In this document: one piece after another, positions 14,403-47,849 of the stretch
Layout: each line of letters begins with the position of its first letter
Position numbering within the stretch: the stretch's first letter is position 1
Assembly (NCBI RefSeq): GCF_024298825.1
Contig: NZ_CP101153.1
Coordinates: forward strand, 3,596,001-3,660,000
Direction of reading: 5' to 3'
DNA length: 64,000 nt
DNA from: Haloglomus salinum
Lineage (GTDB): Archaea; Halobacteriota; Halobacteria; Halobacteriales; Haloarculaceae
Program-made: the position numbers and the translations under genes
Notes under the pieces: generated by a model
What the model saw: only the letters and a program-made list of their open reading frames with translations
Databases searched by the model: none
Told to the model about the DNA's origin: nothing

Positions 14403-14590
14403 GGGCACACACCTCACGGCAGCGGCATAACGCTTCGCCCCGCGGACGCCGAGAACACGGTGGCGGCGGCCGGATACCACGCGCCGCCCAGCGGGGAGCG
14501 GACGGGTGGTCTGTCGGCGACGGACGGGCCGCGCGATACCCGTCCCGGGACCGTTCGCCGTGGAGCGCCCGCGCCGCCGGACGCGCTCGT

Positions 14591-14600
14591 GATTTATACA
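14591..14600 (+). promoter_or_regulatory. TATA box upstream of the MmgE/PrpD gene
   Basis: GATTTATACA is a good TATA element. Transcription would begin near 14622, so the mRNA has a leader of about 30 nt. That leader contains a nine-codon frame (ATG at 14626) whose TGA overlaps the ATG at 14652. Confidence 0.6.
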
Positions 14601-14651
14601 GCCCTACTTGAACGGGAACAGGACCATGCGGGAGTACCGGAACCGGGGTGT

Positions 14652-16823
14652 ATGAACGGATTCGACAGGCGGTCGGTACTCCAGGGAATCGGCGGGCTGG
14701 GTTCGCTCGCGTTGCTCGGCAAGCACGCCGTCGAGGAGGTCGACGCCGAGGAGACCGCCACGGCGGTTCCCGAGGAGGCACGGAGCGTCGAGGCGGGACT
14801 GGAACTGTTCGCAACGAAGTGGGCCGCCGGCGGGCCCATCATCACGGCCACGCGCTTCGGCCGCTTCCTCACGAACCAGACGTACAACGTCCACGTCGTC
14901 CAGCCGGAGACCGACGATGACACCGACGGACAGGCCGACCCGGCGCGCTCGTACACGCTCACGCTCGGGACCGCGGGCGCGACGGCGACCCCCGGCGTGA
15001 CGCCGACGGCCCACGCCGAACTGACGATGGACGAAGCCGACTGGGAGGCCGTGCTGTACGGCGACTACACCGGCCTCGCGCCCATCCTCGCGGGCGACAC
15101 CTACCCGAACAAGGACGACGCGAACACGCTCGTCGGGCTGGTGCTGGTGATGTACGTCCTCGCGCACGTCCCGCACCCGGACGAGGACCCGCGGTTCACG
15201 GCCGAGACGCTGGAGGGACTCTTCCAGCGCGGCGGCGTCCCGGAGTGCGAGGGCGAACCGGCCTCGTTCGCGACCGTCAACCGCGTCCAGAACGACCCTG
15301 CTGGCGAGGTGCGCGAGCGCGCGTTCGGCACCAACGACGCGCCCGACCTCACCCGCGAGTTCGCCGAGTGGGTCGCGGCGCTCTCCTACGACCGGCTGGG
15401 CGAGGAGCAGGTGCAACTCGCCAAGGAGCAACTGAAGAACATGCTCGGCTGTATGGTCGCGGGGGGCGCGACCGAGCCGGGACGCACCTTCTGTGACTCG
15501 ACGGTCGGGTTCAGCGAGGGGCCGGCGACCGTCGTCGGCTTCGATTCGGCCTCGCCCCACGAGGCCGCGATGGCCAACAGCTACCTCTGTCAGGTGCTGG
15601 AGTGGGAGGACTGGACCAACCTCGCACACTCGGGCGCGGCCATCATCCCGGCCGCCCTCGCGGCCGCCGAAGCCGCCAGCGAGGCGGGCAAGCCCGTCTC
15701 CGGGAAGGAGCTCATCACGGCCATCGTCGCCGGCAACGAGGTGCTCGCCCGGACCAGCCAGTTCATGACGGACCTGACGAACACGGGCCAGGCGCTCCCG
15801 CTCCATCAGGTCCAGACGCCACTCGTGGCTGGCAAACTCCTCGGCCTCGACGCCGGGCAACTGCAGGACGCCGTCGGCACGGCCGCCACGCAGCCACAGC
15901 TCACCTCCATCCCGGCGTGGACCGCCGAGGCGAAGGGGATGGTCACGGCGGATCCGACCGGTGCCGGCGTCCGCGCGGCCCTCTTCGCCCGTGACGGCCT
16001 GTCGGGCCGCCGCGACCTGCTGGAGAACCCGCTGGGCTACTGCTACCGTGTCTCCGACGTGCGCAGCCCCCGCGACATGTGGCCCGCCGTCGACGACCTC
16101 GCGACCGACGGGACGCCCGTCGACCAGTGGGGCTTCCGCCGGGAGCAGTACTTCAACAAGCGCTACCCCTGCGACGGCTTCACCATGACCGCCATCCAGG
16201 CGATGCTCAACGTCCGCGGACAGCTGGTCGAGGAGGGAGTCGACCCCACAGACCCGTCGAACATCGAGTCGGTCCGTGTCCACATGAACCTCCCCATGGC
16301 CTCGACGGCAACGATGTTCAACGAGGCCGACGACGCCGTCCTCGACCGTGTCCTCGACGAGGACCAGCCCGACTGGACCTACATCTCGCTCCTGTTCGGG
16401 GGGCGCTACCCGCTCGCCGCCGCGCTCCTTCACGGCGAACTCACCGACCGGCAGTACGAGCGCGATGCCATCGCCGACGACCGCATCCGCGACCTGTGGT
16501 TCAAGTTCGACGAGGCCCCGGACCTCGGCGTCGGTGTCCTCGGCGCACAGGTCAGCGTCACCACCAGCGGCGGCGGTCCCTTCCGCTCGGCGGTCGGCGT
16601 CGACGACACCGCCGCGGGGGACGACGCGACCTACGAGTCGTTCGTCCAGTGTATCACCCGGGATGTCAACGGCCGCGGCCGCGACGACATCCAGACCTAC
16701 ACGCCGGACGTGAAGTTCCACGAGACCGCCCGGCGACTCCCGGAGGGCAAGCGAGACACCATCCTGAGCCACGTCGATACCCTCGAAGGGCGCCCGGTCA
16801 CCGCGCTGACGGCGCTGCTCTGA
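14652..16823 (+). CDS. MmgE/PrpD-family protein with Tat-like leader and extra N-terminal domain, 723 aa
   Basis: Residues from about 235 to the end are an MmgE/PrpD domain, the family of 2-methylcitrate dehydratase and iminodisuccinate epimerase. Typical segments include ANSYLCQVLEWEDW, the HSGAAIIPAALAAAEA helix and KRYPCDGFT. The first 20 residues (FDRRSVLQGIGGLGSLALL) look like a Tat signal. Residues 40-210 form an additional domain whose AELTMDEADWEAVLYGDYTG segment recalls SCP2-like lipid-binding folds. Both features are unusual for this normally cytoplasmic family. Reaction and substrate are unknown. Confidence 0.85.
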   Translation: MNGFDRRSVLQGIGGLGSLALLGKHAVEEVDAEETATAVPEEARSVEAGLELFATKWAAGGPIITATRFGRFLTNQTYNVHVVQPETDDDTDGQADPARSYTLTLGTAGATATPGVTPTAHAELTMDEADWEAVLYGDYTGLAPILAGDTYPNKDDANTLVGLVLVMYVLAHVPHPDEDPRFTAETLEGLFQRGGVPECEGEPASFATVNRVQNDPAGEVRERAFGTNDAPDLTREFAEWVAALSYDRLGEEQVQLAKEQLKNMLGCMVAGGATEPGRTFCDSTVGFSEGPATVVGFDSASPHEAAMANSYLCQVLEWEDWTNLAHSGAAIIPAALAAAEAASEAGKPVSGKELITAIVAGNEVLARTSQFMTDLTNTGQALPLHQVQTPLVAGKLLGLDAGQLQDAVGTAATQPQLTSIPAWTAEAKGMVTADPTGAGVRAALFARDGLSGRRDLLENPLGYCYRVSDVRSPRDMWPAVDDLATDGTPVDQWGFRREQYFNKRYPCDGFTMTAIQAMLNVRGQLVEEGVDPTDPSNIESVRVHMNLPMASTATMFNEADDAVLDRVLDEDQPDWTYISLLFGGRYPLAAALLHGELTDRQYERDAIADDRIRDLWFKFDEAPDLGVGVLGAQVSVTTSGGGPFRSAVGVDDTAAGDDATYESFVQCITRDVNGRGRDDIQTYTPDVKFHETARRLPEGKRDTILSHVDTLEGRPVTALTALL

Positions 16824-19933: not shown

Positions 19934-21301
19934 TCATCGCAGACCCGCCCCGAAGCGATGGCTCCCGAGGTCTCCCTCCGAGATGGGCCGAACGTAGGTT
20001 CCGACCCGTTCGCGGCTCCACCACCGGCCGGTCTCAGCCCGCTCGGCGGGCGAGGTGAACGCGTAGCGGTAGCGGACGGCGCGGACGTGTTCGGGTGGTC
20101 CGTCCGGGAACGGGTCGTGGGCCAGCAGCGAGCGCGTCGCCTCGTCGCCCTCCAGTAGCTTCCGGAGGAACCGCGGGAACCAGGGGCTCCGACGGGGCGT
20201 GGGCGCCATCGCGGCGAACCAGAGCTGCCAGTCCAGCCGGAGGTGGTACGGCGCGACCTGTCCGGGGCGTTCCGCGGGGTCGGTGGGCTTGCCCTTGAAG
20301 TCGTACGTGCGCCACTCCGTGTCCGGGCCGGGGTCCTCGTCGGCGGTGCCCTGCACGACGAGCTCGTACCGGTCCCGCGTGATGGAGCCGAACGCGCCGT
20401 ACGTGTTGACGAGGTGGAGCGGGTCGTAGGAGGTGTTCATCACCTGCGTCTCCGAGACCGTGTTCAGCGCCGGGCGCACGCTGAGCGCGAGGACGATGGT
20501 GAGCGCATTGAGCCACGAGAAGTTGCCCGTGAGCAGTAGCCAGCCCTGGAAGGCGATGGTCGCGACGCCCGCGACGGCCGCGAACGGCTGCGGTGCGAAG
20601 TAGAGGAACGGCACCGCGAGTTCGACCACGTGGTTGCCCAGCGTCTCGACGCGGTGGAACCGGTCGGGCAGGTGGTGGGCGTACCACGAGAGCGGGTTGG
20701 GGATTGGCTGGGTCTCGTAGTGGTAGTCCATACAGGTCAACTCGCGCCAGCAGTCGTCACCGCGGAGTTTGATGAGTCCCGCGCCGAACATGTTGCGAAA
20801 GAGGACCCAGCGCAGGAGCCACACGACGACCCCGGGCGCCGCGGTCCCGGGGTCACCGAGGAAGACCGCGAGGAACCCGACCTCCAGCAGCATCGACTCC
20901 CAGCCGTAGCCGTAGAAGACGCCACCCGCGTTGACGAACGACTGGTAGAGCGCCCACAGCAGGAACCAGAGGAGCATCGAGGCCGGGAGCGCGAACGGCG
21001 CCGGGACGACGGCCGGGGCACCGACGAGCGCGAGCGCCGCGAGCCCGACCCCGGCCCACGCCGCGACGGCGATGGCGCGGTCGCTCGGGACGTAGTAGAA
21101 CAGGCTCGGCCGCTCGCGGAACTCGGCACGCTCGACGTACTCACGAAGCGGCCGGAGCCCGTCCTCACCGGCCAGGGGCCGGAACTGGAACGCCGCGACG
21201 AGGAAGGCCAGCAGGTAGAGCAGCGCCAGTCCCCGCCGGACGAGGAAGCGGGCGAACCAGTAGCTCCCGCCGGCCGGGAGCCCCAGCTCGGAGAGCACCA
21301 T
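19934..21301 (-). CDS. lipase maturation factor (LMF)-like membrane protein, 455 aa
   Basis: This is a polytopic membrane protein with about seven to eight hydrophobic segments in the first 280 residues, followed by a soluble C-terminal domain. The family landmarks are present: GVFYGYGWESMLLEVGFLA, RWVLFRNMFGAGLIKLRG, the CWRELTCMDYHYETQPIP segment and LVNTYGAFGSITRDRYELV. In animals LMF1 helps fold secreted lipases; in archaea the partner is unknown. Length is usual. It follows the VWA gene after 77 bp on the same strand. Confidence 0.88.
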   Translation of the reverse strand: MVLSELGLPAGGSYWFARFLVRRGLALLYLLAFLVAAFQFRPLAGEDGLRPLREYVERAEFRERPSLFYYVPSDRAIAVAAWAGVGLAALALVGAPAVVPAPFALPASMLLWFLLWALYQSFVNAGGVFYGYGWESMLLEVGFLAVFLGDPGTAAPGVVVWLLRWVLFRNMFGAGLIKLRGDDCWRELTCMDYHYETQPIPNPLSWYAHHLPDRFHRVETLGNHVVELAVPFLYFAPQPFAAVAGVATIAFQGWLLLTGNFSWLNALTIVLALSVRPALNTVSETQVMNTSYDPLHLVNTYGAFGSITRDRYELVVQGTADEDPGPDTEWRTYDFKGKPTDPAERPGQVAPYHLRLDWQLWFAAMAPTPRRSPWFPRFLRKLLEGDEATRSLLAHDPFPDGPPEHVRAVRYRYAFTSPAERAETGRWWSRERVGTYVRPISEGDLGSHRFGAGLR

Positions 21302-21378: not shown

Positions 21379-23445
21379 TCAGCCCCGCCGGAACAGGGTC
21401 CGGACGAGCTGCGTGAGGGTCGTCCCGACGGCGTCCGGGTCGGTGACGACCAGCCGGTCGAAGAACTCGGTGTGGTCGGGGGCGGCGCCGTCGCCCGCAT
21501 CGATGTAGACGCCGAACACCGGGAAGTTGCAGGCGTCGAGTACGGCCCCGTAGCGCTCCTCGTCGTTCGGGGCGCCGTCGGTGACGACGAACACGAGTGG
21601 CTCGTGGCCCCGTCCGGTCCGGACACGCTCGCGGGCGATGGTGAGTGCGGCCGAGAGCGGCGTGCTGCCGCCGACCCGGCCGCTCAGCAGCCGGTCGACG
21701 TGGTCCCCCGGCGTCCCCCCGAACGGCAGCTCCAGCCACGGCAGGCTCTGGTGGACCGACAGCACGGAGACGTCGACACCGACGCCGGCCATCGCGACCG
21801 CGAGGCGGGCGGTGGCGTCCTCGGCGGCCGCGACGGCCCCGGACATCGAGCCGGACCGGTCGAGGACGAGGAGGCAGCTGTAGTCCTTCTCCGGGCCGCG
21901 CTCGACCCGCTCGAAGACCCGGCTGGACCCCCGCCGGACGTCGACGACGCGCCGGGAGTCGAGCGACCCGACGCGGTGGCCGCCGCTCCGGGTCGCGCGG
22001 CGCTCGCGGCGCAGCTGTGTCTCCAGCGCCGCGGACAGCCGCTGTGCGTCCCGGGCGGCGGTCTCCCACCGCTCGCGGTTGCCGCTGCCCGGTTCCGGCT
22101 CCGGAATCCCGACCCGGTCCAGTTCCTCGGACTCGCGAACCAGCTCCAGCAGCCGCTCGGCCTCCTGCCGGAGCGGGTCCGAGTCGTCGAGCGCCCGGCT
22201 GGCGTCGTCGCCCCGCAGCGACCGCTCGGCGCGGCGGACGGTCCCCCGGTCGAGCCGCCCCGGAAGCACCTCCCTGCCGGGACCAGTTCCGCGGCCCGTC
22301 CGGTCGCCGGAACGCCGCGTCCCGTCCTCGCCCTGGTCGGCGGCGAGTCCCGGCAGCCTGTCGGCCGGGCGCGGGTCGGTGATGGCGACGGGGATGGCGT
22401 CGTGCGGTCGTCCGGCGCGGCGCTGGCCGGCCTGCAGTTGTGCCGGGGGGAGGGCTTCCAGCGTTGGGCGCACGGTCCGGAAGAACGCGGCCGCCAGGTC
22501 GACCCGTCGGGTGCCGTCGGGCTCGGCGAACATCCGGTCCATGTACGTCTCGATGCTCGGCTGTAACTCGACCAGCACGTCGTGGCGGCCGTTCCGGACG
22601 ACGAGCGCCTCGTCGTCCGGGTCGAGGAGCGCCTCGAATCGACCGCTATCGCCGAAACCGTGGTCCAGCAGCCCGATGCCCAGCGCCTCCTTCACCGTGT
22701 ACTCGAGCGGTGGCCCGTCCCGGCTCGCCACACCAGGTGCGCCCGGGCCGGTGCCCGAGTGGCCGGCGGGGGAGCCCCCGCTGCGGGCACCTGGCTCTCG
22801 GGCCGGGTCGCCGCCACGACCGGACCCCGCTCCGGCCGGCTCCCCGTCGTCGAACAGGTCGACGTACGCGCGGTGACGACGGCGTTCGCGCTGTGCGAAG
22901 GCGTCGTTCAGGACGACGAAGTCCTCACCGACATCGAACTCGGCGGCCATCTGCGCCTCGACGACGCCGTCCTCGGCGGCGTTGTAGACGGTCCGGAACA
23001 GCTCCTCCCACTCCGGAGCGATATGCGAGCGCCAGTCGCCGAACCGCTGGAGGTCCGAGTAGAGCACGTGGCCGAGTTCGTGGAACAGAAGGCCGACCTG
23101 GACGCGCCGGTCCCAGCGTCGGGGATGCATGTCGGTCCGTCCCTGCTCGATGCGCTCGGTCGGGAGGCGGATGACGTACGACTCCGTCACGAGCGGGCCG
23201 GCGCTGCCCCCGTGCCGCTGGCGATGTTCCGCCCCGGTCCGGGACCCGGAGCCGTCGTCCTCGTCACCGGTGTCGGCGGGGCGGCAGGACGCCTCACGCT
23301 CCGTGAAGCTGACCGACACGTCGACCGACCGTGGCGTGCAGATGTTCGCCAGCCGCTCGAGTTCCCGACGGTTCTCCGCGGAGCGGCGGTCGGGCAGCGC
23401 GAGCCGGGAGAGCCGGCCGGGGTCGGTGTCCGGGGTCAGATACAT
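21379..23445 (-). CDS. VWA-domain protein with HELGH metalloprotease-like motif, 688 aa
   Basis: Residues 90-200 contain VGLLFHELGHVLYSD, an H-E-x-x-H motif with a following YNAAEDGVVEAQMA segment, as in the putative metallopeptidase domains that accompany MoxR/VWA pairs. A long polar, Arg/Gly-rich linker (about 200-500) leads to a C-terminal VWA domain (about 510-688). Its MIDAS signature is LVLDRSGSMSGA, with later GGSTPLSAAL and FVVTDGAPND. It directly follows the MoxR-type ATPase gene (35 bp gap), its expected partner. Architecture recalls NorD, CobT and DUF2201-type proteins. Target unknown. Confidence 0.85.
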   Translation of the reverse strand: MYLTPDTDPGRLSRLALPDRRSAENRRELERLANICTPRSVDVSVSFTEREASCRPADTGDEDDGSGSRTGAEHRQRHGGSAGPLVTESYVIRLPTERIEQGRTDMHPRRWDRRVQVGLLFHELGHVLYSDLQRFGDWRSHIAPEWEELFRTVYNAAEDGVVEAQMAAEFDVGEDFVVLNDAFAQRERRRHRAYVDLFDDGEPAGAGSGRGGDPAREPGARSGGSPAGHSGTGPGAPGVASRDGPPLEYTVKEALGIGLLDHGFGDSGRFEALLDPDDEALVVRNGRHDVLVELQPSIETYMDRMFAEPDGTRRVDLAAAFFRTVRPTLEALPPAQLQAGQRRAGRPHDAIPVAITDPRPADRLPGLAADQGEDGTRRSGDRTGRGTGPGREVLPGRLDRGTVRRAERSLRGDDASRALDDSDPLRQEAERLLELVRESEELDRVGIPEPEPGSGNRERWETAARDAQRLSAALETQLRRERRATRSGGHRVGSLDSRRVVDVRRGSSRVFERVERGPEKDYSCLLVLDRSGSMSGAVAAAEDATARLAVAMAGVGVDVSVLSVHQSLPWLELPFGGTPGDHVDRLLSGRVGGSTPLSAALTIARERVRTGRGHEPLVFVVTDGAPNDEERYGAVLDACNFPVFGVYIDAGDGAAPDHTEFFDRLVVTDPDAVGTTLTQLVRTLFRRG

Positions 23446-23480
23446 GTGTGTTCCTCGGGAGGTGGATGCGGGCCAACCGC

Positions 23481-24434
23481 TCAGAGCTGTTTGTCGATGA
23501 GCGTCTCGACCAGCGACTCGTCGTGGGCATGGACGCGAGCGAGCAGTTCGCTCCGCGTCGCGGTCACGAGGTCCATGAAACCGTCCTCCATGAACGTCGC
23601 GATGCGGACGAGTTCGCGGGTGGTGATGGGCGTCGACAGCTCGCCGTCGAGATACGCCTCCCGGAGCCGACCGGCGAACGCGACCAGTCGCTCGACATCG
23701 GGCTCGCGCTCGCGGGAGAGGTCACTCCGGCGGAACACCAGGTCGACCTCCAGCTCCGCGGGGAGGTAGTCGAGTTCGACGTGCCGGAAGCGGTCCTCGA
23801 ACGCCGCGTTCAGCTCGTAGGTGCCCTGATACCCCGGATTGGCCGTGGCGACGACGCGGAACTCCTCGTGCGGGATGATGGTCTCGCCGGTCTGTGGGAT
23901 CGTCAGCGACCGGGTCCGGTGGCTCTCCATCACGGCGTTGAGCGCGGCGACCGTGTTGGCGTCGGCGGCGTTGATCTCGTCGAGCAGGAGCACCCCGCCC
24001 TCGCGGACCGCCCGGGTCAGCGGGCCGTCGACCCACTCGGTCACGCTCTCGCCGCCCGGCGCCGTCACGAGGTGCATGTGCCCGAGCAGGTCCTCGCGGT
24101 AGGTCGTCTCGGAGAGGGTGATCCGGTAGAGCGGCCGGTTCGTCCGGGCACAGAGGTAGCGCGCGAGGAAGCTCTTGCCGACGCCGGGTGGTCCCTTGAG
24201 GACGACGTTCATCGACGCCTCCAGCGCCCGTGTGACGATGTCGACGTCCGTGTGGTCGCTCGTGGCTGGCCGGTGGAAGTAGGCGTCCTCTTCGACCTCG
24301 GGCACCTGCTCGTGGCTCACGTCCTCGAGGACGGTCAGGTGGCCGAACGTCGTCTCGGTCGGGGCGCCCGCCTCGGTGGGGCGGCCGCCGAACGTGTCCG
24401 TGTCGGTCTCGTGAGTGGGGTCACTCCCGGTCAT
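23481..24434 (-). CDS. MoxR-family AAA+ ATPase (CbbQ/NorQ/CobS-like), 317 aa
   Basis: A single AAA+ module: Walker A GPPGVGKSFLAR (about residue 82), Walker B GVLLLDEINAAD, sensor 1 VVATANPGYQGTYELN, and the arginine-finger region FEDRFRHVELDYLP. The domain belongs to the CbbQ/NorQ/GvpN branch of MoxR proteins. With a VWA partner these remodel or metallate a client complex. The next gene encodes the VWA partner and the preceding one a HEAT-repeat giant, so it is probably the motor of this system. A role as CobS in cobalt chelation is less likely, because a ChlI-ChlD fusion is already beside cobN. Confidence 0.9.
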   Translation of the reverse strand: MTGSDPTHETDTDTFGGRPTEAGAPTETTFGHLTVLEDVSHEQVPEVEEDAYFHRPATSDHTDVDIVTRALEASMNVVLKGPPGVGKSFLARYLCARTNRPLYRITLSETTYREDLLGHMHLVTAPGGESVTEWVDGPLTRAVREGGVLLLDEINAADANTVAALNAVMESHRTRSLTIPQTGETIIPHEEFRVVATANPGYQGTYELNAAFEDRFRHVELDYLPAELEVDLVFRRSDLSREREPDVERLVAFAGRLREAYLDGELSTPITTRELVRIATFMEDGFMDLVTATRSELLARVHAHDESLVETLIDKQL

Positions 24435-24661
24435 GATAGGTGGCTGCGGCGCGGCGTCGGTCGCGGCACCGTCGGGCCTCGACAGTCCCCGGCCCGGCCC
24501 CCGCCGTGAAGCAGTACCCGACACTCCCAGCGGGAGTGACAAATGCCTTGTCCAGGAGTGGGGGCCGATACCATATGCCGGGAGGCGGGCCACCGGGACG
24601 GGCGACGGTCGCCCCGCTCGGGTCGCTCCACACCGGCTGTCCCGGAGTCGGTCCGCCCCAC
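24435..24661 (-). promoter_or_regulatory. 227-bp gap with likely promoter for the MoxR-VWA pair
   Basis: The minus strand here contains GACAAGGCATTTGTCACTC about 100-120 nt before the MoxR ATG, which includes the inverted repeat GACAA-GGCATT-TTGTC in part. No coding potential is seen. A separate transcript for MoxR-VWA is therefore possible even though the HEAT gene precedes it on the same strand. Confidence 0.35.
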
Positions 24662-27600
24662 TCAGGCCGCCTCGGGGTCGGCCCGTCCCCGGAGGACGTC
24701 CAGTGCCGCCTCGGCGAACTCGTCGAGCGGAGTGTCCAGCCGGTCGGCCGCGGCCGTCAGTGCCTCGCGACAGTCCGCCCTGACGAACCGATGGCGGGCC
24801 CCGAGCACGCCCAGCGCCCGGAGTTCCCCGTGCGGCCCGTGGTCGGCTCCGACCCGGAGCCGGTAGGCGAGCAGCGCGACCACGCAGCGGACGCCGGCTC
24901 GTGTCTCCCGAGCGACGGTCGCGAGTGCGGTGCCCGCGGCGCGACGGACTCGCATCACGTCGTCTTCCAGCCGGCGGAACAGCAGTCCGGCGGCGGCGTC
25001 CGGGTCGAGCCCGCCTGCCTGCACCAGTGGCGGGATGGCCGTGACGGCGTCGACCCGGCGCTCCCACCCCGTGGCAGTGAGTTCCCGCCGTACCGGTGTC
25101 GCGGCCACCTCGGCCACCGCGTCGCCGTCCGCCTCGACGAGGCCACGGAGCGCCGCTATCGCCCCCTCCCGATGCCGCCCGTCGTCGTACATCTCGCGGA
25201 CGGCGAGCGCCGCCTCGCAGGTGTCGAGTGCCGACTCGGCAACCGTGGCGGTGGCCTCGTCACGGGCCCCGCGCTCGGTGTGGACGAGGTAGCGAGCGAC
25301 GTCCGCGGCCACCTCGCGGTCCGCCGACTCCTCCTCGAGATGGGCCAGGTGGAGCGACGTGCCGGTCCGGGCCAGCACCCGGGCGCCGAGCTGGAGCCAC
25401 CGGTTCGTCACCGTCGTCTCGTCGAGGAGATGGTCGAGCGACGCCTCCCCCGGCACGCACAGGGTGGGCAGTGTGGTGGTCAGCGTCGCCAGCGCCGGGA
25501 GCGTCCGCCGAACCGGGTGGGCGGGACCGGAGAGCCGGTCCTCCCAGTCGATCTCGGCCGGGAGTTCGTGGAACGCCACGCGGACCGCGTCGGGGTCGGT
25601 GCGAGCCAGTCGTTCGAGCAGGTGGCCGGCCGACACGCGCCCGACCTCCCCGTCCGGGCGCTCCGGGTCCAGCGGCCGCGCGAGGCCGTGCGTGGCGTCG
25701 GCCGCCGCTCCCGCCACCTCCTCGGAGCCGTCACCGTCGGCGGCACCGTCGTCGTAGCCGGCGAGCGCCCCCACCAGTCCGGTCGCGAGCCGTTCGGGGC
25801 TCTCGACGGCGGCCGACGGAACGGCCAGTAGCGCGACGGCGAGGGTCCACCGGGTGTCGGGGTCCGTCAGGAACCGGCGTTCGAGCGCCGGCGCCGCGTC
25901 GCTCGCCGCCGTCTCGTCGTGGCGGACGACACGCGCGAGTGCCGCGGCCGCCCGCCGGCGCACGCCCGGACTGGGGTCCCAGAGGCGCTCGACCAGCGCG
26001 TCGACCGACTCGGTTCCGTCCGTGGCGATACCGACCCGACCGAGCGCGGTCACAACCGCCTCGTCGGTCGCCGGCGGTCCGCCGGTGGCGGCCCGGAGTG
26101 CGGGGTCGAGCGGCCCGACCGCATCCGGCACGACCCGGGCGAGTTCCCCCGCCGCGCGAGCGGCGTGCGCCACGACGACAGGGTCGGAGTCGTCCAGCAG
26201 CCCGCAGACCGCCCCGGCGGCGTCCGCCGGGGCCCGATGCCCGACGAAGCCGAGCGCCGTCGCCGCCGCCCGCCGGACTTCCGGGTCGGCAGCCGTGGCC
26301 GCGCCCACCACGTCCAACCCCTTCGCGGCCGATTCGAGCCGGTCGCTGTCGGCCGACTCCGCGGGGGTCGCGAGAGGTCGTGTCACAGCGCGGACGGCCG
26401 GGACCGCTCCGGGGTCCGTGTCCGGCGCGGCCCCGGTCGTTCCCGTCGCGTCGTGAACCGGTCGGTCGTCGAGCGCCCGACGAGCCGTGGCCCGGGTGTC
26501 TGGGTCGGGGACGGACCGGGCCCGCTCCAGATACTCGGTCGCGGCCGCTCCCGGCACCTCGGCGAGGGCCTCGACGACGGTCCGCTCGAAGGCCCGCTCG
26601 TCCGGGACGCCGTCGTTCACCCGATGGCGGTAGCTCGGTCCGGGGACGGGCGACGCATGGTGGACGGTCGGCACCGGATTGTCGGGCGGGTCGGGCGCCC
26701 GGCAGCGGGCGGCCAGCGTGGGGACGAGCGCCGGCGCGAGCGCCGGGTAGGCCGCCAGCAGCCACAGGGCCGCCAGCGGGTCCCGGTGGCGAGCGGCGTC
26801 CGACGCGTCGGCGCCGCCGGTCCCGACGCCGTCGTCCGGCGTCCGGAGTCGAGCGAGCGCCTCGGACAGGTATCGTGGGTCGGCTATCGCGATTCGAGCC
26901 AGTGCCCGCTGCGTGGCCGTGGCCTCGCACGCGGCCAGCGTCCGAACCGCGGGCGCCACCGCGTCGGCGTCGTGTTCCGCGACGGCGACCAGCGCTCGGC
27001 TCGCGTCGACGACCACGTCGGAGCCGGCGGTCGCCTCGCGAGGACAGGCGACGGTCGTCTCCCGGGCGAGCAGCGTCCGCAGGCGTTCGACCGCGTACCG
27101 GCGGGTGTCGAAGTGGTCGGCGCGAATCGCCAGCGCCCCGGCCAGCGCCGCCACCACACTGTCGTCGTGGTCGGGTTGCCAGAGGAAGGGCTTGATTTCG
27201 GCAGGACCGATGACAGGCGTCTCGGGTACCGCCGCGACCCCAGCCAGCACCGCTCGCGCCGCCTCCCGCCGCGGGGCGACCGGGCTGCCGGTGTCCGGGC
27301 CCTCGTCCGCCTCCCCGTCGCCGAACAGTTCCCCCAGCGACATGGACTCCTCCGCCGAGTCCTCTGCTGTCTCGTCGTCCTCATCGGCGGTGGCACCGGG
27401 CGGGGGCGCTCCGGCGGCGACGCCGAGCAGGTCGAACAGCGCGGGCTCCAGCGCCGCCGGCGCGGCGAGCGTGGCCGCCCGGAACGCTGCGGGCGCGTCG
27501 CCCATCGCCGGGCCACGCTGCCGGCTGCAGAACCGCTCGACGACGACCGGTGCCATCGTCGGGTCCTGCTCGACGAGTGTCTGCAGGGCCTCCGAGAGAC

Positions 27601-29140
27601 GGTTCCGGGGGCTCTCCTCGGATGTCCGGTCGAGCGTGGTCGTCAGGGCGGCGACGGCGCTCTCACGGGCCGACGCCGTCGCAGCGCCGGTCGCGACGCG
27701 CTCCAGCGCCACCACGTACTCGGCGGGGCTCTCCGGGTCCTCGCCCTGGAACGCCGTGAGCACCTGCCCGACGGTCACCGAGGCGGCGTGTTCGTCGACA
27801 CGGCCCAGGACAGACAGGACCGCCAGCGCCGCCGTTCGATGCGGGTGCCCCGGCTCCTGTCGGAGTACCCGTGCCTCCCGGTGGGCCAGCGCGGCGGTGT
27901 CGAGCGGCTCGAAGACCGGTTCGGGTATCGAGCAGCAGAACGAGACGAGTGGCTCCCGAGCGTCGGCATCCCACACCTCCCAGTGGGGCAGCCCCAGCAG
28001 GTACCGGACCAGTCGCGTCCGGAGGTCCAGCGGGACAGCGGCGAGCGACCAGTCCTCCACGCGCTCCCGCCAGAGCGCCACCGCACGCTCCACGGCGCCC
28101 CACAGCGAGGGTCTCTCGAGGAGCGCGTCGGTGAGCTCCGTGAGGAGTTCCTGCCGGCGCTCCGGGCCACGGACGGCCGCGAGGCGCGCGAGTTCGACGG
28201 CCGCCACGCTCTGTTCCTGCGGGTGGTACGTCTCGTCGTGGAGCGCCCGCAGCAGCGGCGCCCAGGCGGCCGCCGCGAGCCGCGGCTCGGCGGCACCGAC
28301 CCGGCCGAGCGCCTCGTAGGCCGCCTGTCGCACCTCGTCCACCGGGTCCTCGGCCGCCACCGCGAGCGCGGAGACGACGCGGTCCGTCGTCGGCTCCTGG
28401 AACGGGAGCTGCCCCTCACGGTCGCGTGCGACCGTGGCGAGTGTCTCCGCGGCCTCCTCTCGGACCTCGGCGTCGTCGTGCGAGAGGCGGGCGACGATCG
28501 GCTCGACATCCGGAACCAGCGCCGGGAGGACCGTCCCGACGACCCGGAGTGTCTCCAGCGCCCGGCGCAGTGATTCCGGGTCGGGTCGCTCCCCGTCCGT
28601 CCCGTCCAGCGCCTCCACCGCGGCGGCGACGGTGGGTCGGGCCGCGGTGGGCGCCGTCGCCCCGGCGATACCGACCAGCCGGTAGCCGCCGTCCCCCTGG
28701 TAGATTCCCTCCTCGGCATGTGCGACGTGCCACGCGACCGCCCGCGTGAGGATACTCGGGACGCGGTGGGCGAGCGCGGCGAGCAGCCCCGTCACCGCCG
28801 GGTCCGCGTCGCCCATCCCGTCGCTGGCCGCTCGCACCAGTGGCTCGACGTTCCCCATGAAGGCCCGCGGACGGAGGACGGCGAGCGTCCGCAGCGTCAG
28901 TACTGCCGAGCCCGGGACCCCGGTTCTGTCGTTCCACTCGTACGCCGTCACGACGGCCGCCACCGCTCGGGAGGCCTCTGACGGGTCGGCACGGGCGGCG
29001 GCGACCAGGACCTCGTGGGCCGCCCGGCGAACCGGCGGCTCGCCGGGAAGGTGGTCGCTGGCCGTCTCGATGGCCTCGACCGGCGGCTCCTGCTCCAGCC
29101 GAACCGCCTCGGCCAGGCGGCGCAGCTCCGCGAGCGTCAT
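24662..29140 (-). CDS. giant HEAT-repeat scaffold protein, 1492 aa
   Basis: Almost the whole chain consists of HEAT-type helical pairs, many with the D-x-x-x-x-V-R-x-x-A-A-x-A-L-x-x-V pattern. Examples are HDDAEVREEAAETLATVAR, DPVDEVRQAAYEALGRVG and PEVRRAAATALGFVGHRAP. An acidic break near residues 595-625 (EDDETAEDSAEESMSLGELF) splits the array. No catalytic motif, signal peptide or membrane helix was found, so it is a cytoplasmic scaffold. The ATG at 29140 is chosen (MTLAELRRLAEAV); upstream in-frame sequence is basic and unlike the rest. It is flanked by a propeller gene and a MoxR-VWA pair, all on the same strand. Confidence 0.88.
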   Translation of the reverse strand: MTLAELRRLAEAVRLEQEPPVEAIETASDHLPGEPPVRRAAHEVLVAAARADPSEASRAVAAVVTAYEWNDRTGVPGSAVLTLRTLAVLRPRAFMGNVEPLVRAASDGMGDADPAVTGLLAALAHRVPSILTRAVAWHVAHAEEGIYQGDGGYRLVGIAGATAPTAARPTVAAAVEALDGTDGERPDPESLRRALETLRVVGTVLPALVPDVEPIVARLSHDDAEVREEAAETLATVARDREGQLPFQEPTTDRVVSALAVAAEDPVDEVRQAAYEALGRVGAAEPRLAAAAWAPLLRALHDETYHPQEQSVAAVELARLAAVRGPERRQELLTELTDALLERPSLWGAVERAVALWRERVEDWSLAAVPLDLRTRLVRYLLGLPHWEVWDADAREPLVSFCCSIPEPVFEPLDTAALAHREARVLRQEPGHPHRTAALAVLSVLGRVDEHAASVTVGQVLTAFQGEDPESPAEYVVALERVATGAATASARESAVAALTTTLDRTSEESPRNRLSEALQTLVEQDPTMAPVVVERFCSRQRGPAMGDAPAAFRAATLAAPAALEPALFDLLGVAAGAPPPGATADEDDETAEDSAEESMSLGELFGDGEADEGPDTGSPVAPRREAARAVLAGVAAVPETPVIGPAEIKPFLWQPDHDDSVVAALAGALAIRADHFDTRRYAVERLRTLLARETTVACPREATAGSDVVVDASRALVAVAEHDADAVAPAVRTLAACEATATQRALARIAIADPRYLSEALARLRTPDDGVGTGGADASDAARHRDPLAALWLLAAYPALAPALVPTLAARCRAPDPPDNPVPTVHHASPVPGPSYRHRVNDGVPDERAFERTVVEALAEVPGAAATEYLERARSVPDPDTRATARRALDDRPVHDATGTTGAAPDTDPGAVPAVRAVTRPLATPAESADSDRLESAAKGLDVVGAATAADPEVRRAAATALGFVGHRAPADAAGAVCGLLDDSDPVVVAHAARAAGELARVVPDAVGPLDPALRAATGGPPATDEAVVTALGRVGIATDGTESVDALVERLWDPSPGVRRRAAAALARVVRHDETAASDAAPALERRFLTDPDTRWTLAVALLAVPSAAVESPERLATGLVGALAGYDDGAADGDGSEEVAGAAADATHGLARPLDPERPDGEVGRVSAGHLLERLARTDPDAVRVAFHELPAEIDWEDRLSGPAHPVRRTLPALATLTTTLPTLCVPGEASLDHLLDETTVTNRWLQLGARVLARTGTSLHLAHLEEESADREVAADVARYLVHTERGARDEATATVAESALDTCEAALAVREMYDDGRHREGAIAALRGLVEADGDAVAEVAATPVRRELTATGWERRVDAVTAIPPLVQAGGLDPDAAAGLLFRRLEDDVMRVRRAAGTALATVARETRAGVRCVVALLAYRLRVGADHGPHGELRALGVLGARHRFVRADCREALTAAADRLDTPLDEFAEAALDVLRGRADPEAA

Positions 29141-29252
29141 CTGCCCGTGACTGCTCGCGTCACGTGTAAATCCCTTCGGGGGTCGTGCTGGCTGTGAACG
29201 CCCCCCGTGACGGAACCGACGACTCCCGTCCGGGGTCGGACGAAGGGCGCCA

Positions 29253-30389
29253 TCAGCCGTCGACGTACCCGGACAGGAACCCCGATGTCGGAGCGCTGTG
29301 CGGCCCCTCGGGGAGGGCTTCGCCGCCGACGAACAGTGCTCCATCGGCCAGCGTGGCCCGTGCCGTGGTCGCGTTCGACGGTGAGAGGTGGTACTCGACG
29401 TCGCCGTCGTACGTCAGCACGTACACCGAGCCGTCCGCCGTACCCAGGTGCAGCCGCCCCCCGACCGCCGCCGAACTGTGGACGTAATCGCAGTCGAGGT
29501 CTCGGACCCAGCGGACCGTGCCGTCGCCCACGTCGAGCGCGAAGACCGCGTTGCAGGTCCCCACGAACGCCGTGTCCGCCGTGACACTCAGCGTGCTGAT
29601 GGCCGACCGGTTGGCCGGCGGCCCCTGTCCGTCACGGCCCATGTTCCGGAGGTCGTCGTGGAACGCCGGCCGGAAGAGGTCGGCAGTCCAGCGTGGCTCG
29701 CCGGTCCCGGCGTCGAGCGCGTACAGGTCCCCAGACCGCCGGCCGGTCAGGACGAGGCCGTCGACGGCGACGGGTGCCGTGGTGCTGTTGCCGTCGAGCG
29801 TCCGGCTCCAGCACGGTTCGCCGTCCGAGAGCCCGTAGGCCGCCACTCCGTCGCCGGTCGCGTGGAAGACGGTTCCCCGAGCGACCGCGGCGTCGCCGCT
29901 GGCCGCGGCCGCGTCCCACGCCACCGTTCCGTCGCTCGCGCGGCGGACGACGAGCGAGTCGTCGGCGTGACTCACGACGACACGATTCCCGGCGACGACC
30001 GGCGGCGCGCGCGACCCACGGGCGGTGCCCGCCGCCCAGCGGTCCTCGCCGGTCCCGGCGTCGAGGGCGTGGACCGTGGTCTCGGCACGCCCGAAGTCGT
30101 CGAAGCCAGCGACGAAGACCGCCCCGCTCCGGAGGACGACGGGCGCCGTGACCGTCTCTGCCGGGAGCTCCCGCTCCCAGACGACCCGCCCATCGGTGCG
30201 GTCGACCGCCAGGACGCGTCCACTCCGGGTCCCGGTGTAGACCCGCCGGTCGCCCACCGCCGGCCGGGCGAGGATGGGCTCCTCCGTCGTGTGGGTCCAG
30301 GTCGGCGTCCCCGGGCCGGCGAAGGCCGCGCCGTCGTGGTCGTGGCCTCGCCGCTCCGGGTCGGCGTTGCGCGCCGGCGGCCGGGTCAT
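29253..30389 (-). CDS. PQQ-like beta-propeller protein, 378 aa
   Basis: Repeated blades follow the V-x-A-L-D-x-x-T-G-x-x-x-W pattern (VLAVDRTDGRVVWERE, VHALDAGTGEDRW, LYALDAGTGEPRW, FALDVGDGTVRWVRD). This is an eight-bladed PQQ-type propeller without signal peptide, hence cytoplasmic. The PQQ-binding residues of dehydrogenases are not evident, so a binding platform is more likely than an enzyme. The ATG at 30389 overlaps the TGA of the phosphoesterase gene (ATGA), which indicates coupling. An in-frame ATG at 30395 would add two residues. The HEAT gene follows after 112 bp. Confidence 0.85.
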   Translation of the reverse strand: MTRPPARNADPERRGHDHDGAAFAGPGTPTWTHTTEEPILARPAVGDRRVYTGTRSGRVLAVDRTDGRVVWERELPAETVTAPVVLRSGAVFVAGFDDFGRAETTVHALDAGTGEDRWAAGTARGSRAPPVVAGNRVVVSHADDSLVVRRASDGTVAWDAAAASGDAAVARGTVFHATGDGVAAYGLSDGEPCWSRTLDGNSTTAPVAVDGLVLTGRRSGDLYALDAGTGEPRWTADLFRPAFHDDLRNMGRDGQGPPANRSAISTLSVTADTAFVGTCNAVFALDVGDGTVRWVRDLDCDYVHSSAAVGGRLHLGTADGSVYVLTYDGDVEYHLSPSNATTARATLADGALFVGGEALPEGPHSAPTSGFLSGYVDG

Positions 30390-31342
30390 CGCCATCCCAC
30401 CTCGACCGCCTCCGTGCGGAGGGTTCCGTCCCGGCTGACGGAGACGCTCGACACCCCGGCGTCGCCCGGGTTGTGGGCGTACGAGTGGCCGGCGGTCGTC
30501 GGCACCGCGGTCAGGCCGCGCTGGTGGGTGTGTCCGGAGAGGCAGCCGCTGACGGCGGTCGCCGCCAGGGCGAGGCGGAGCGCCACGGAGCCGAAGTGGT
30601 GGCTCCCGTCGTGGGAGTGCTGACCGCGGATGTCGAACGGCACACCGAACGGGGAGACGTGGCTCGCGATTACGGTCGGCTGCGCGTCCCCGAGCAGTTC
30701 GACGAGCGTCCCGAAGCGCTCGTCGAGGCGTGCCAGCGAGGCCTCGAACGCGGCGTCCGACGGGTCGGTCCCGAGGCGGTCGGCGAGCTGTGCCGCGCTC
30801 AGCGCGCCATCGAGGTACGCCCCCACTGCGCCGAGGAGGCTCTCGGCGACGGCCTCGGGCGTCCGGTGGTCGCTCCCGACCGGAATCTCCGGGTAGTCCG
30901 GCGAAAGCAGGGCCGGCGTGAAGTCGAACTGCTCACAGCCCCAGCCCGCGAGCGCCAGCGACCAGCCCGCATCGACCGCCACCCGGCGGGTCTCACCGTG
31001 GAGCGGGTGGACGTTCGCCAGGCCGTCGCTCAGCCGCCGTGTGCAGGTGAGGGGGTCGTGGTTCCCGGGCACCGCGAGGACGGGAACGCCCCGCTCGTCG
31101 AGGCGCTCCAGGAACGCGCGGCCCCGTTCCTCGTAGGCTTCGCCCGCTGCTGCCGACGGGGCGTGTTCGCGGTTCTCGTCGATGATGTCGCCCAGCGATA
31201 CCACGAGGTCGTGCGCCGCGACCGGGAGGTCATCGACCGGGTATCGTCCGCCCGTCGCGCGGAGGTGGAGGTCCGAGACGACCAGCAGGTCGACCGTCGG
31301 GCCCGCGACACGACATACCGGGCCGCCCTCGGAGTCAGTCAT
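30386..31342 (-). CDS. calcineurin-like metallophosphoesterase, 318 aa
   Basis: All metal-ligand motifs are present in order: VVSDLHLRA (D-x-H), SLGDIIDEN (G-D-x-x-D), VPGNHDPL (G-N-H-D), ASHVSPFG and LSGHTHQRG (G-H-x-H). The enzyme should hydrolyse a phosphomonoester or phosphodiester using a two-metal site; substrate unknown. The ATG at 31342 (MTDSEGGPV) lies within the end of the previous phosphoesterase gene (8 bp overlap), and its TGA overlaps the ATG of the propeller gene. It is thus the middle gene of a tightly coupled trio. Confidence 0.9.
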   Translation of the reverse strand: MTDSEGGPVCRVAGPTVDLLVVSDLHLRATGGRYPVDDLPVAAHDLVVSLGDIIDENREHAPSAAAGEAYEERGRAFLERLDERGVPVLAVPGNHDPLTCTRRLSDGLANVHPLHGETRRVAVDAGWSLALAGWGCEQFDFTPALLSPDYPEIPVGSDHRTPEAVAESLLGAVGAYLDGALSAAQLADRLGTDPSDAAFEASLARLDERFGTLVELLGDAQPTVIASHVSPFGVPFDIRGQHSHDGSHHFGSVALRLALAATAVSGCLSGHTHQRGLTAVPTTAGHSYAHNPGDAGVSSVSVSRDGTLRTEAVEVGWR

Positions 31343-31907
31343 CGTCCCCCACCGTGCGCTCGGCGGCGGCCCGGTCGGTGAATCGCTCGCCACGGGCCAG
31401 GTAGTCGACCAGCCGGTCGGTCGCGAGCGGCCGGTAGTCCAGCAGTTCGACCGAGAGGTTGACGCGCCGCGTGTCGTGGTCGACGAACGGGAACTCGTCC
31501 GGCCAGTTGTTGTGGTGGTGGCCGTGGAGGAGCCAGCCCGCGTGGTTCGAGGGGCCGTCCGCCGGGTCGTGGACGGCGTGGAACGGGACCCCACGATGCT
31601 CGAAGCGGTACTCCTCGGCGAACCGGACCCGGTCCAGCCCCTCCAGCACGGTCCCGTCGTGGTTGCCCAGCAGGAACACCAGCTCGCCGTGGAGTTCCTC
31701 GAGCCAGTCCAGCAGCGCCGCGGCGGACGAGCGGATGGTCAGGTCACCACCGTACAGCACCTCGTCGCCCGGGTCGACGACCGCGTTCCAGCGCTCCACC
31801 AGCGTCTCGTTCATCTCCGTGACCGAGTCGAACGGCCGGTCACAGTACTCGATGATGTTGTCGTGGTCGAGATGGAGGTCCGAGACGAGATAGTCCACTG
31901 GTGTCAC
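31335..31907 (-). CDS. small metallophosphoesterase (YfcE/MJ0936-like), 190 aa
   Basis: Calcineurin-like motifs are visible: YLVSDLHLDHDN, VLYGGDLTI (G-D-x-T rather than G-D-x-x-D), LLGNHDGTV and LLHGHHHNNW. Its small size matches single-domain phosphoesterases. The start is uncertain. GTG at 31907 (VTPVDYLVSDLHL) is used; a GTG at 31898 would begin directly at the first strand, and one at 31956 would add an unlikely extension. It overlaps the next phosphoesterase gene by 8 bp. Confidence 0.85.
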   Translation of the reverse strand: MTPVDYLVSDLHLDHDNIIEYCDRPFDSVTEMNETLVERWNAVVDPGDEVLYGGDLTIRSSAAALLDWLEELHGELVFLLGNHDGTVLEGLDRVRFAEEYRFEHRGVPFHAVHDPADGPSNHAGWLLHGHHHNNWPDEFPFVDHDTRRVNLSVELLDYRPLATDRLVDYLARGERFTDRAAAERTVGDDD

Positions 31908-31990
31908 GTGGTCGGGCGGGTACTCGTAGATTGTGCCGGGGTGAGGGAGAGTGACACGGCGCGCGTTGCGCCCACACCGGCCGCCCCGAT

Positions 31991-32932
31991 TCAGTCGTCC
32001 GCCCGCAGCCGCTCGACGGTCGATGCGATGGCATCTGGGGGCGCATCGCCCGGTTCGAGGACGACGGGCACGTCGTGTTCGCGGCAGAACGCGAGTACCC
32101 ACGCCAGGCCGTCGGAGCCGTGGTCGCCGCCCGGCAGGCCGTCCGAGCCGTGGCTGTCGCCGGGCAGACCGTCGGTGGCGGGGTCGTTCAGGTGGAGCGC
32201 TCCCACCGTCCCGCCGGCGAGGGCGAGCATGACGAAGACCGGGCGCCACGGGCTGTCCGGTGCCGGCGGCTCGACGCCCGGGCCGATGCGGTCCTGCACA
32301 CGGTCGTGGTTCGTCCGCAGGAACGACCCGAGCGCGTCCGCCAGGCGCTCGCGGAGCGCCCCGTCGAGTCGCGCCAGTACCGTCTCGAGCGCGTCGTCGT
32401 CGACCGTCGGCTCGCGCCGGTCCATCGGGACGTGGGCCGTGTCGACCAGCACGGAGACCGCGCCGAGCCGCGGGACCCGGTCGGCGAGAAGCGCCACCGC
32501 GGCCACGTCCTCGGGGGTGTGGTAGTGGCTGGGGTCCGGGAGGTTCTCGACGGCGAGCGGGTAGCCGCCGACCTCGGTGATGGTCTCGAGCCGGTCGACC
32601 TGCTCACGGTAGTCGAACTCGCGGGTGGTGTGGACCGTCAGCCAGTCGGGCGCGACCTCGGCCCCGAACGCCCGGTTGGTGAAGTCGGTGATGGTGCCCA
32701 CTGCCCCCGGCGCGACGCTCATCCCCTGCGGGTGGGTCGTCCCGGGCGGGAGGTGGACGCTGGTGACGGCCGCCGGGTCGACCCCCCGCTGAGTGTACTC
32801 GTCGGCGAGCGTGTGGTCGGCCGAGAGGCGCTCGGCGTGCTGCCAGTCGAGTTTACATTCGAGGCCGTCCCCGAGGTGCGCGACGCTCGCGGCCCGCTCG
32901 GGCGACGCCGATATCAGGACGGTGAGCGTCAC
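31991..32932 (-). CDS. TIM-barrel sugar-isomerase/endonuclease IV-like protein, 313 aa
   Basis: The protein looks like a xylose-isomerase-type TIM barrel (AP endonuclease 2 superfamily). Candidate metal ligands lie at barrel strand ends: LAVENLPD (Glu), VSVLVDTAHVP (Asp/His) and GALHLND (His/Asp). The usual loop after H-L-N-D is replaced by two ten-residue repeats (GLPGDSHGSD, GLPGGDHGSD). It may be an isomerase, epimerase or nuclease of nucleic-acid or sugar substrates; which cannot be told. It lies 83 bp upstream of the metallophosphoesterases on the same strand. Confidence 0.75.
   Translation of the reverse strand: MTLTVLISASPERAASVAHLGDGLECKLDWQHAERLSADHTLADEYTQRGVDPAAVTSVHLPPGTTHPQGMSVAPGAVGTITDFTNRAFGAEVAPDWLTVHTTREFDYREQVDRLETITEVGGYPLAVENLPDPSHYHTPEDVAAVALLADRVPRLGAVSVLVDTAHVPMDRREPTVDDDALETVLARLDGALRERLADALGSFLRTNHDRVQDRIGPGVEPPAPDSPWRPVFVMLALAGGTVGALHLNDPATDGLPGDSHGSDGLPGGDHGSDGLAWVLAFCREHDVPVVLEPGDAPPDAIASTVERLRADD
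32105..32164 (-). repeat. 30-bp tandem duplication in the TIM-barrel gene
   Basis: Two 30-bp units beginning CAGGCCGTCGGAGCCGTGG (32105-32134) and CAGGCCGTCCGAGCCGTGG (32135-32164) lie head to tail, followed by a short partial third (CAGACCGTC). They encode the ten-residue repeat with His and Asp in the loop after the last predicted metal ligand. Confidence 0.85.
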
Positions 32933-33013: not shown

Positions 33014-33514
33014 TCAGTGGTCCGCCGAGTCGTCGGCGACCCCCGGAACGTCGACCTCGGACTCGAACAGGGCGTAGTAGCCGCCGCGGTCGGCCGCTCG
33101 CCACAGTATCGGCTCGGCGTCGAGCTGCCGGCAGTGCCACAGATACACCAGCCGCCCGATGCGGCCGTTCCCGTCGGCGAAGGGGTGGACTCGCTCGATG
33201 GCGACGTGCCACTCCAGTGCCTCGACGGGGTCGGCCGGCTGCCAGTCGAGCAGGCCGTCCATTGCGGGCCGCACGAACCCCGGCGGTGGCGGGCGCCGCC
33301 CGCCGACCGTCACCCGGACGTCGCGGTACTCCCCGGCGATTCCGGGCTGGCGGTTCCGGAGAATCCGTCTGTGGCTCTCCCTGACGACCTCGTGGGTGAG
33401 TTCGTCCCGGTCACGGAGATACGCCCAGGCGTCGAGGCTGTCCGCGAGGGCGGCCTCGCTCTCGACGCCCTCTATCGCGTTCGACTCACGCAGGTACTCG
33501 CGTACGTCGACCAT
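33014..33514 (-). CDS. Fic-domain protein with its own inhibitory motif, 166 aa
   Basis: The active-site motif HPFADGNGRIGR (about residue 123) matches H-x-F-x-D-G-N-G-R-x-x-R, so AMPylation or another nucleotidyl transfer is chemically possible. Near the start RESNAIEGVES contains S-x-x-x-E-G, the glutamate-bearing inhibitory helix of class II Fic proteins, so the enzyme can restrain itself. The protein is shorter than most class II Fic proteins and lacks a C-terminal wHTH. The ATG at 33514 gives MVDVREYLRESN. It is divergent from ndk. Confidence 0.85.
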   Translation of the reverse strand: MVDVREYLRESNAIEGVESEAALADSLDAWAYLRDRDELTHEVVRESHRRILRNRQPGIAGEYRDVRVTVGGRRPPPPGFVRPAMDGLLDWQPADPVEALEWHVAIERVHPFADGNGRIGRLVYLWHCRQLDAEPILWRAADRGGYYALFESEVDVPGVADDSADH

Positions 33515-47815: not shown

Positions 47816-47849
47816 ACTTGTCCGATTGCAACGGAGGTTTAACAAGATT
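47816..47849. promoter_or_regulatory. 34-bp divergent promoter between the chelatase subunit gene and cobN
   Basis: Only 34 bp separate the two ATGs. CTTGT (47817-47821) and its complement ACAAG (47842-47846) sit at both ends. AACGGAGGTTT in the middle provides a possible ribosome-binding site for cobN. For both leaderless mRNAs the TATA element would lie inside or beside the other gene's first codons, so transcription in the two directions should interfere or be co-controlled. Confidence 0.5.

Follow-up and report, generated by a model that had tools for sequence, protein, structure and literature searches.

A rare haloarchaeal module of a MoxR ATPase, a VWA protein and a giant HEAT-repeat protein: a candidate protein-remodelling machine

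The gene locus in Haloglomus salinum

The module described here lies on the 4.19 Mb chromosome of the haloarchaeon Haloglomus salinum, in a stretch of 64,000 nucleotides (positions 3,596,001 to 3,660,000 of NZ_CP101153.1) which is called the window and whose own numbering is used throughout. The core comprises three genes, all on the minus strand: a VWA adaptor protein of 688 residues (21379-23445), a MoxR-type AAA+ ATPase of 317 residues (23481-24434) and a giant HEAT-repeat protein of 1492 residues (24662-29140), which is the core partner of the other two. They belong to a row of seven minus-strand open reading frames (ORFs) that a first-pass annotation, made from the bare sequence, had proposed as a single system, and all seven are present at, or very near, the places where it had put them. 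The same genes are found in the same order in Haloglomus halophilum ZY41, the closest named relative, with 88-97% protein identity.

The ATPase is placed in the NorQ/CbbQ/CobS clade by its Pfam matches to AAA_5 (6.6e-30) and CbbQ_C (5e-5; 23.7 bits against a cut-off of 20.6), and its profile matches in the Protein Data Bank (PDB) are to Midasin, NorQ, CbbQ and CobS. It has the AAA+ core of this clade, a CbbQ_C-type lid, and Walker A, Walker B and arginine finger motifs that are conserved in the alignment; the Walker A motif, GPPGVGKS, is read in the sequence at 24171-24194 (minus strand).

The VWA protein (Pfam VWA_2) is closest by profile to CobT and NorD. It is divided into an N-terminal domain that carries a HELGH motif, an acidic linker, a conserved basic finger region, assigned by homology only, and a C-terminal VWA domain that ends the protein in the aligned loci. 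In the AlphaFold model (mean predicted local distance difference test score, pLDDT, 75.6) the N-terminal domain is helical and the linker is disordered, with low-confidence segments at about residues 341-421. The best fold matches in the PDB are the NorD chains of NorQD, and the matches cover the VWA part only. Residue conservation was taken from an alignment of 17 relatives. Here, the metal ion-dependent adhesion site (MIDAS) motif DRSGS (residues 529-533; 21847-21861, minus strand) is completed by T595 and D623, and D529, S531, T595 and D623 are invariant, with S533 nearly so. The HELGH motif (residues 122-126; 23068-23082, minus strand) may form a zincin metal site, to which N155, E158, D159 and E163 would also belong; H122, H126 and these four residues are invariant, E123 and G125 exceed 90%, and the set is also kept in haloviral relatives. 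Judged by sequence, the ATPase and the VWA protein belong to the NorQ-NorD/CbbQ-CbbO/CobS-CobT architecture, with predicted ATPase and MIDAS sites that are both intact.

The third protein, which matches HEAT and HEAT_2 in Pfam, is a HEAT solenoid. A model of residues 1-900 (pLDDT 62, which is modest) is a continuous helical repeat with no strands, and its fold matches are CAND1, SF3B1 and the karyopherins.

Distribution and co-inheritance of the three core genes

A first search with the VWA protein, covering 243 genomes of the order, returned close relatives in four other genomes. Subsequently, a profile made from seven VWA proteins was run over 392 genomes of the class; genomes were sampled and not exhaustive, and gene calls outside plasmids were made in this analysis. 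Members with scores above 600 bits occur in the window genome, in genomes that we label G059, G103 and G172 (same family), in G261, G273, G277, G350 and G304, and in two copies each in G006 and G310. The module is rare, as it is carried by about 10 of the 392 genomes, and the MoxR gene is present in two of the four genomes of Haloglomus itself. A contig scan with one query sequence returned only H. halophilum, no IMG/VR contig encoding a relative turned up in the scan, and no relatives were found outside the class among 393 genomes of the phylum at E<=1e-20. The empty site was not located in the module-less Haloglomus genomes, where the TIM-barrel-like protein described below was without a match as a query.

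Fourteen loci, including that of H. halophilum, were read across nine genera and four families. A giant of the same family adjoins the MoxR-VWA pair in 13 of them, usually with a length of 1423-1536 residues, and the trio is conserved in eight genera despite a shuffled gene order. The order giant-MoxR-VWA is seen in the window, in H. halophilum and in one copy each of G006 (G006a) and G310 (G310b), and the order MoxR-VWA-giant in G103, G059, G172, G261, G273, G277 and the other copies of G006 (G006b) and G310 (G310a); in G350 the giant is divergent from the MoxR-VWA genes. The locus in G304 looks incomplete: its MoxR call is short, and a HerA-like ATPase and an 850-residue protein of no known family lie where the giant would be (L088:13376-19203).

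Co-occurrence was also examined with a profile specific for the giant, with two candidates scored per genome. A match was found in 5 of 195 genomes of the order, which are exactly those with the MoxR-VWA subfamily (Fisher 4e-10, phylogeny not corrected for). Median identity between loci that are not close is 71% for MoxR, 44% for the VWA protein and 22% for the giant, which is therefore the fastest-evolving core member, and the distance matrices of the three proteins co-vary (Spearman 0.68-0.83). In both G006 and G310, two paralogous types of the module lie about 17 kb apart, and these types pair identically in the tree of MoxR plus VWA and in the tree of the HEAT protein. MoxR, the VWA protein and the HEAT protein of about 1490 residues form a conserved, co-inherited and patchily distributed module. 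The search for such pairs beside a HEAT giant across haloarchaea, which the first-pass annotation had suggested as a check, has a positive outcome, with the giant in 13 of 14 loci and strictly co-occurring.

The module is found on named plasmids in Halomicrobium mukohataei (pHmuk01), Halomicrobium sp. LC1Hm, Halorubrum sp. BOL3-1 (p117) and Natribaculum luteum; the gene set is rare and mobile in haloarchaea and often lies on megaplasmids. In N. luteum, an E1-type ThiF adenylyltransferase, resembling that of an E1-E2 defence operon, lies beside the second copy of the module (L104:34340-36136).

Accessory and neighbouring genes

The remaining four genes of the row, all on the minus strand, lie upstream of the giant. 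The first encodes a PQQ/BamB-like beta-propeller protein of 378 residues (29253-30389; PQQ_2, E=7e-33). This is followed by two calcineurin-like metallophosphoesterases, MPE2 of 318 residues (30386-31342; Metallophos, E=8e-11) and MPE1 of 187 residues (31335-31898, from a GTG start; 31907 is also possible), and by a TIM-barrel-like protein of 313 residues whose family was not matched (31991-32932). The MPE1 and MPE2 genes overlap by 8 bp. The ATGA coupling of the propeller gene to MPE2, noted in the first reading, holds if the second ATG is the start of the propeller gene, which is the case for the ortholog in H. halophilum. The run of minus-strand genes extends past these seven. Upstream lies a gene for a Fic protein of 166 residues (33014-33514; Pfam Fic, E=4.5e-15) with an intact, canonical HPFADGNGRIGR motif; in BOL3-1 and G006, the Fic homologues that lie close to the system appear truncated or frame-broken (L103:15065-15310 and L032:2029-2483). 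Directly downstream of the VWA gene is an archaeal protein like lipase maturation factor 1 (19934-21301; LMF1 plus LMF1_C, E about 1e-62). Further away, the window contains an ORF of 1266 residues (13023-16823) with an MmgE/PrpD domain in its C-terminal part only, preceded by about 770 unassigned residues.

Two of these genes are recurrent accessories. MPE1 is without a Pfam match and matches a phosphoesterase PHROG and the structure 1XM7; its metallophosphoesterase motifs (DxH, GD, GNHD, H and GHxH) are kept in 14 homologues, one of which has GDHD. It is present in 11 of 12 genomes with the system and in 14 of 142 others (Fisher 2e-9), or, counted by genus, in 8 of 9 and 8 of 54 (Fisher 3e-5), with phylogeny ignored in both tests. 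In seven of the eight genera with MPE1, the gene is no more than 35 kb from the system, a limit chosen afterwards, and in G261 it is the gene immediately upstream of MoxR. Tailed phages, too, commonly encode MPE1, at below 60% identity. Propellers recur at the Halomicrobium, G006a, G261 and G350 loci. One locus (L033) has the propeller fused to the giant: here the G006a giant reaches 1821-1945 residues and runs on into the propeller. In Halomicrobium the propeller is fused to a kinase that adjoins MoxR.

MPE2 and the TIM-barrel-like protein are locus-specific neighbours. Homologues of MPE2 were found at the BOL3-1 locus (29%) and in G100 (48%), a haloarchaeon that is without MoxR-VWA. The latter has a cassette of MPE2, a SIMPL protein, another metallophosphoesterase, the TIM-like protein and MPE1 (L109:5394-9730). 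The TIM-like protein of this cassette is the one distant homologue of that in the window, for which no Pfam, NCBIfam, PDB or PHROG match confirms the TIM-barrel label. Because MPE2 and the TIM-like protein sit with MPE1 in a genome without the motor, they are best read as a joined cassette and were rejected as core components. The proposal of a seven-gene system is in this way narrowed: MoxR, the VWA protein and the giant are a real conserved module with propellers and a phosphoesterase in its orbit, and the TIM-like protein and MPE2 fall outside it, being also missing from nearly all other system loci. On p117 of BOL3-1, the region upstream of the module (L103:3654-14502) contains a run of four metallophosphoesterases, a DHH phosphoesterase, a DUF1810 protein and a tubulin-like protein.

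Hanks-type kinases are a further group associated with the system. In 18 control genomes there are 0-1 per genome, and at the system they number 12 of 13 in H. mukohataei (on the 222 kb pHmuk01), 6 of 6 in G350, 2 of 2 in G261 and 1 of 1 in G006. Some of the system-linked kinases are fused to HEAT repeats, to a PQQ propeller, to FHA or to helix-turn-helix plus ferredoxin domains.

Relation to known MoxR-VWA systems

The first-pass annotation could not match this combination to a known complex, and no description of a MoxR-VWA-HEAT system was found in the open-access literature. The nearest relatives are NorQ-NorD, CbbQ-CbbO and CobS-CobT, which share the MoxR clade by profile and a VWA partner with an N-terminal domain, a disordered linker, a finger region and a C-terminal MIDAS VWA. 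In the NorQD complex, the finger of the VWA protein is inserted into the pore of the ring, and it was proposed that the client is remodelled when the linker twists (PMC13036017). NorD and CbbO have N-terminal domains that are unrelated to each other and bind different targets (PMC9976466). In contrast to these systems, the module has HELGH in the N-terminal domain, an obligate HEAT partner of 1490 residues and no linked nitric oxide reductase, Rubisco or CobN client, and it misses the cut-offs of the named families. Cobaltochelatase CobS-CobT was rejected as an identity, as the NCBIfam model PD_CobS gives 71 bits against a cut-off of 558 and the CobN in the window has a ChlI/D-type partner of its own. 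That cobaltochelatase locus (45578-51746) consists of CobN (1298 residues) and a ChlI/ChlD-type AAA-VWA chelatase partner, so that two different AAA-VWA motors lie within 30 kb.

The module also resembles the MoxR-vWA ternary conflict systems of Kaur et al. 2020 (PMC7159879) in having MoxR, a VWA protein and a further protein, in its propeller and in its accessory, patchy occurrence; for the most part, their beta-propeller subsystem was reported in four groups of bacteria (PMC7159879). It differs in that the VWA protein has no C-terminal propeller, the P-loop is an ordinary GPPGVGKS, and the third component is a HEAT solenoid and not VMAP, iSTAND, FtsH or a TPR-propeller. No VMAP, iSTAND or FtsH domain was found in the window proteins or in the scanned locus neighbours, and the bpMoxR model (PF20030) stays below its cut-off (25.9 bits against 27), with AAA_5 scoring far higher. 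Membership of the MoxR-vWA-beta-propeller ternary system was rejected, as the roughly four-bladed C-terminal propeller of the vWA is missing and the propeller instead has its own gene or is joined to HEAT or kinase.

Haloarchaeal Hanks kinases, VWA and tubulin-like proteins also come together in the vWA/kinase/FtsZ-like 1 loci (Makarova & Koonin 2010, PMC2875224); MoxR and a HEAT giant do not figure in the accessible part of that description. Tubulin-like genes lie near three system loci. A tubulin-like protein was rejected as a component, since Tubulin_2 is common in control genomes and distant from the module in most carriers.

Neighbouring AAA and VWA genes are likewise found in the haloviruses HVTV-1 and Hardycor1 and in Acidianus two-tailed virus. 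The VWA protein of HVTV-1 is co-linear with that of the module and has retained its HExxH, finger and MIDAS residues. The viral pairs differ in having only 27-31% identity and no adjoining HEAT giant, propeller or phosphoesterase in the stretches read. Tailed haloviruses of the Druskaviridae encode MoxR-VWA pairs with these same residues conserved (L121:3196-7052; L122:2347-5965), which are annotated CobS/CobT in HCTV-16. A viral origin of the module itself was rejected, as no IMG/VR relative was found and the haloviral pairs are distant.

Proposed function and alternatives

We consider it somewhat better than an even chance that this haloarchaeal module is a protein-remodelling machine of the MoxR-VWA kind, with a giant HEAT partner dedicated to it. 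Support comes from the strict co-occurrence of the giant with MoxR-VWA and its retention in 13 of 14 loci despite shuffled order, from the co-varying distances of the trio and the like pairing of paralogous types in both trees, and from the resemblance of the two motor proteins to NorD/CobT and NorQ/CbbQ/CobS together with the HEAT-propeller fusion in L033. In addition, MPE1 is enriched and lies near the system, and kinases cluster at the locus in four genera, against 0-1 in controls. As a whole, the gene set has the appearance of a stress or conflict machine that is new to the literature and probably controlled by phosphorylation. We infer the client, the trigger and the output of the module, and that the motor remodels the giant is a step beyond the conserved trio; a function in stress, conflict or maturation is inferred in the same way.

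By analogy with NorQD and CbbQO, MoxR would form a hexamer into whose pore the VWA finger plugs. The VWA domain would use its MIDAS metal to bind an acidic site on the client, the N-terminal HELGH domain would serve as a second anchor, and ATP hydrolysis would then twist the client. Most likely, the giant is itself this client or else the arm by which the client is presented, and the motor would thereby move the solenoid back and forth between a free state and one bound to its partners. The propellers probably sit on the solenoid as partners or sensors, and the switch may be gated by a phosphorylation or nucleotide signal, set by the recurrent phosphoesterase and, in other genera, also by Hanks kinases. 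A stress or conflict output is most likely because the module is accessory, patchy and often megaplasmid-borne.

Several points weigh against this remodelling proposal. The giant is put forward as client from co-inheritance and might be an adaptor or effector instead. Propeller and MPE1 are each absent from some loci, and there is no Hanks kinase in Haloglomus, so kinase gating cannot be general. By eye, leaderless-promoter-like stretches precede the HEAT, MPE1 and TIM genes, which suggests more than one transcript. A search of the window proteins with defence models (PADLOC) gave nothing convincing, with weak AAA and phosphoesterase matches only.

That last result bears equally on the alternative of an anti-viral or inter-element conflict system like those of Kaur et al. 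2020, in which MoxR-VWA sets a threshold and the fast-evolving HEAT and propeller parts recognise the invader or act as effectors. This is possible, at a clearly lower probability than the dedicated remodelling machine. It would account for the rarity and patchiness, the megaplasmid carriage in several genera, the fast evolution of the giant, the paralogous types side by side in two genomes and the defence-like HerA-like and E1-type ThiF genes near two loci. A MoxR-vWA module, which may be of this clade or of another, was also noted in all morphogenetic haloarchaea in 2023 (PMC10067837). However, the core is without a nuclease, toxin or other effector domain, and the giant is not hypervariable at short range, being 92% identical between the two Haloglomus species. 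We regard as doubtful a new archaeal signalling-remodelling machine that would serve as a plasmid-borne immunity or stress switch, where the state of a propeller-bearing HEAT scaffold would be set by kinases together with calcineurin-like phosphoesterases and reset by MoxR-VWA; it would have the three fold classes of eukaryotic PP2A (HEAT scaffold, calcineurin-like phosphatase and propeller) and would not be a homologue of it. A similarly low probability is given to an ATP-dependent proteolytic switch, where the motor would open the giant or a propeller and the HELGH domain, as a putative active zinc protease, would cut. The HExxH motif and N155/E158/D159/E163 are among the few conserved residues of the 17 relatives and are kept in haloviral relatives, and they are carried by two model helices (108-129 and 144-170, respectively). 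In gluzincins, HExxH and the downstream ligand set lie on two such helices. No Pfam peptidase family or peptidase fold was matched by the VWA protein, however, with its best fold matches confined to the VWA part, and one distant relative has HAMAH in place of HELGH; since the catalytic Glu is lost there and both His are kept, a structural metal site is suggested.

The other alternatives are less probable. A chaperone that, like CobS-CobT or NorQ-NorD, inserts a metal or cofactor and serves an enzyme elsewhere in the genome, with the HEAT protein only as adaptor, would fit the best matches of the motor proteins (CobS, CobT, NorQ and NorD) and the chelatase genes at 45.6-51.7 kb of the window. 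It is unlikely given the CobS score, the AAA-VWA partner that already adjoins CobN, the small number of carrier genomes and the lack of any metalloenzyme recurrent beside the module. Still less probable is a captured relative of the tailed-halovirus pairs that would assemble virions or particles for an integrated element. VWA relatives at about 30% identity occur in HVTV-1, HCTV-1, HCTV-5 and HCTV-16, with an AAA gene beside them where read (MoxR 27%), and PHROG 23795 matches the VWA protein at 2e-59, but no virion genes were recognised near the module in the loci read, and the IMG/VR scan and the lack of a giant beside the viral pairs in the stretches read also count against it. Finally, the genes could be separate ones that merely lie together, in keeping with the gaps of 227 bp (24435-24661) and 112 bp (29141-29252) and possible separate promoters; this is hardly tenable, as it is contradicted by a trio conserved in eight genera, in shuffled order and with strict co-occurrence.

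Significance

A handful of client enzymes are known for MoxR-VWA motors, and most of these motors have no known client. In the present case, a single dedicated giant partner emerges from genomics alone, which makes the client question directly testable. The analysis also shows where Hanks-type kinases gather in haloarchaea, most surveyed genomes of which have none or one, and links them to a remodelling motor. If the module is a conflict system, it would carry the idea of MoxR-vWA immunity over to archaea, and its third component would be of a new kind.

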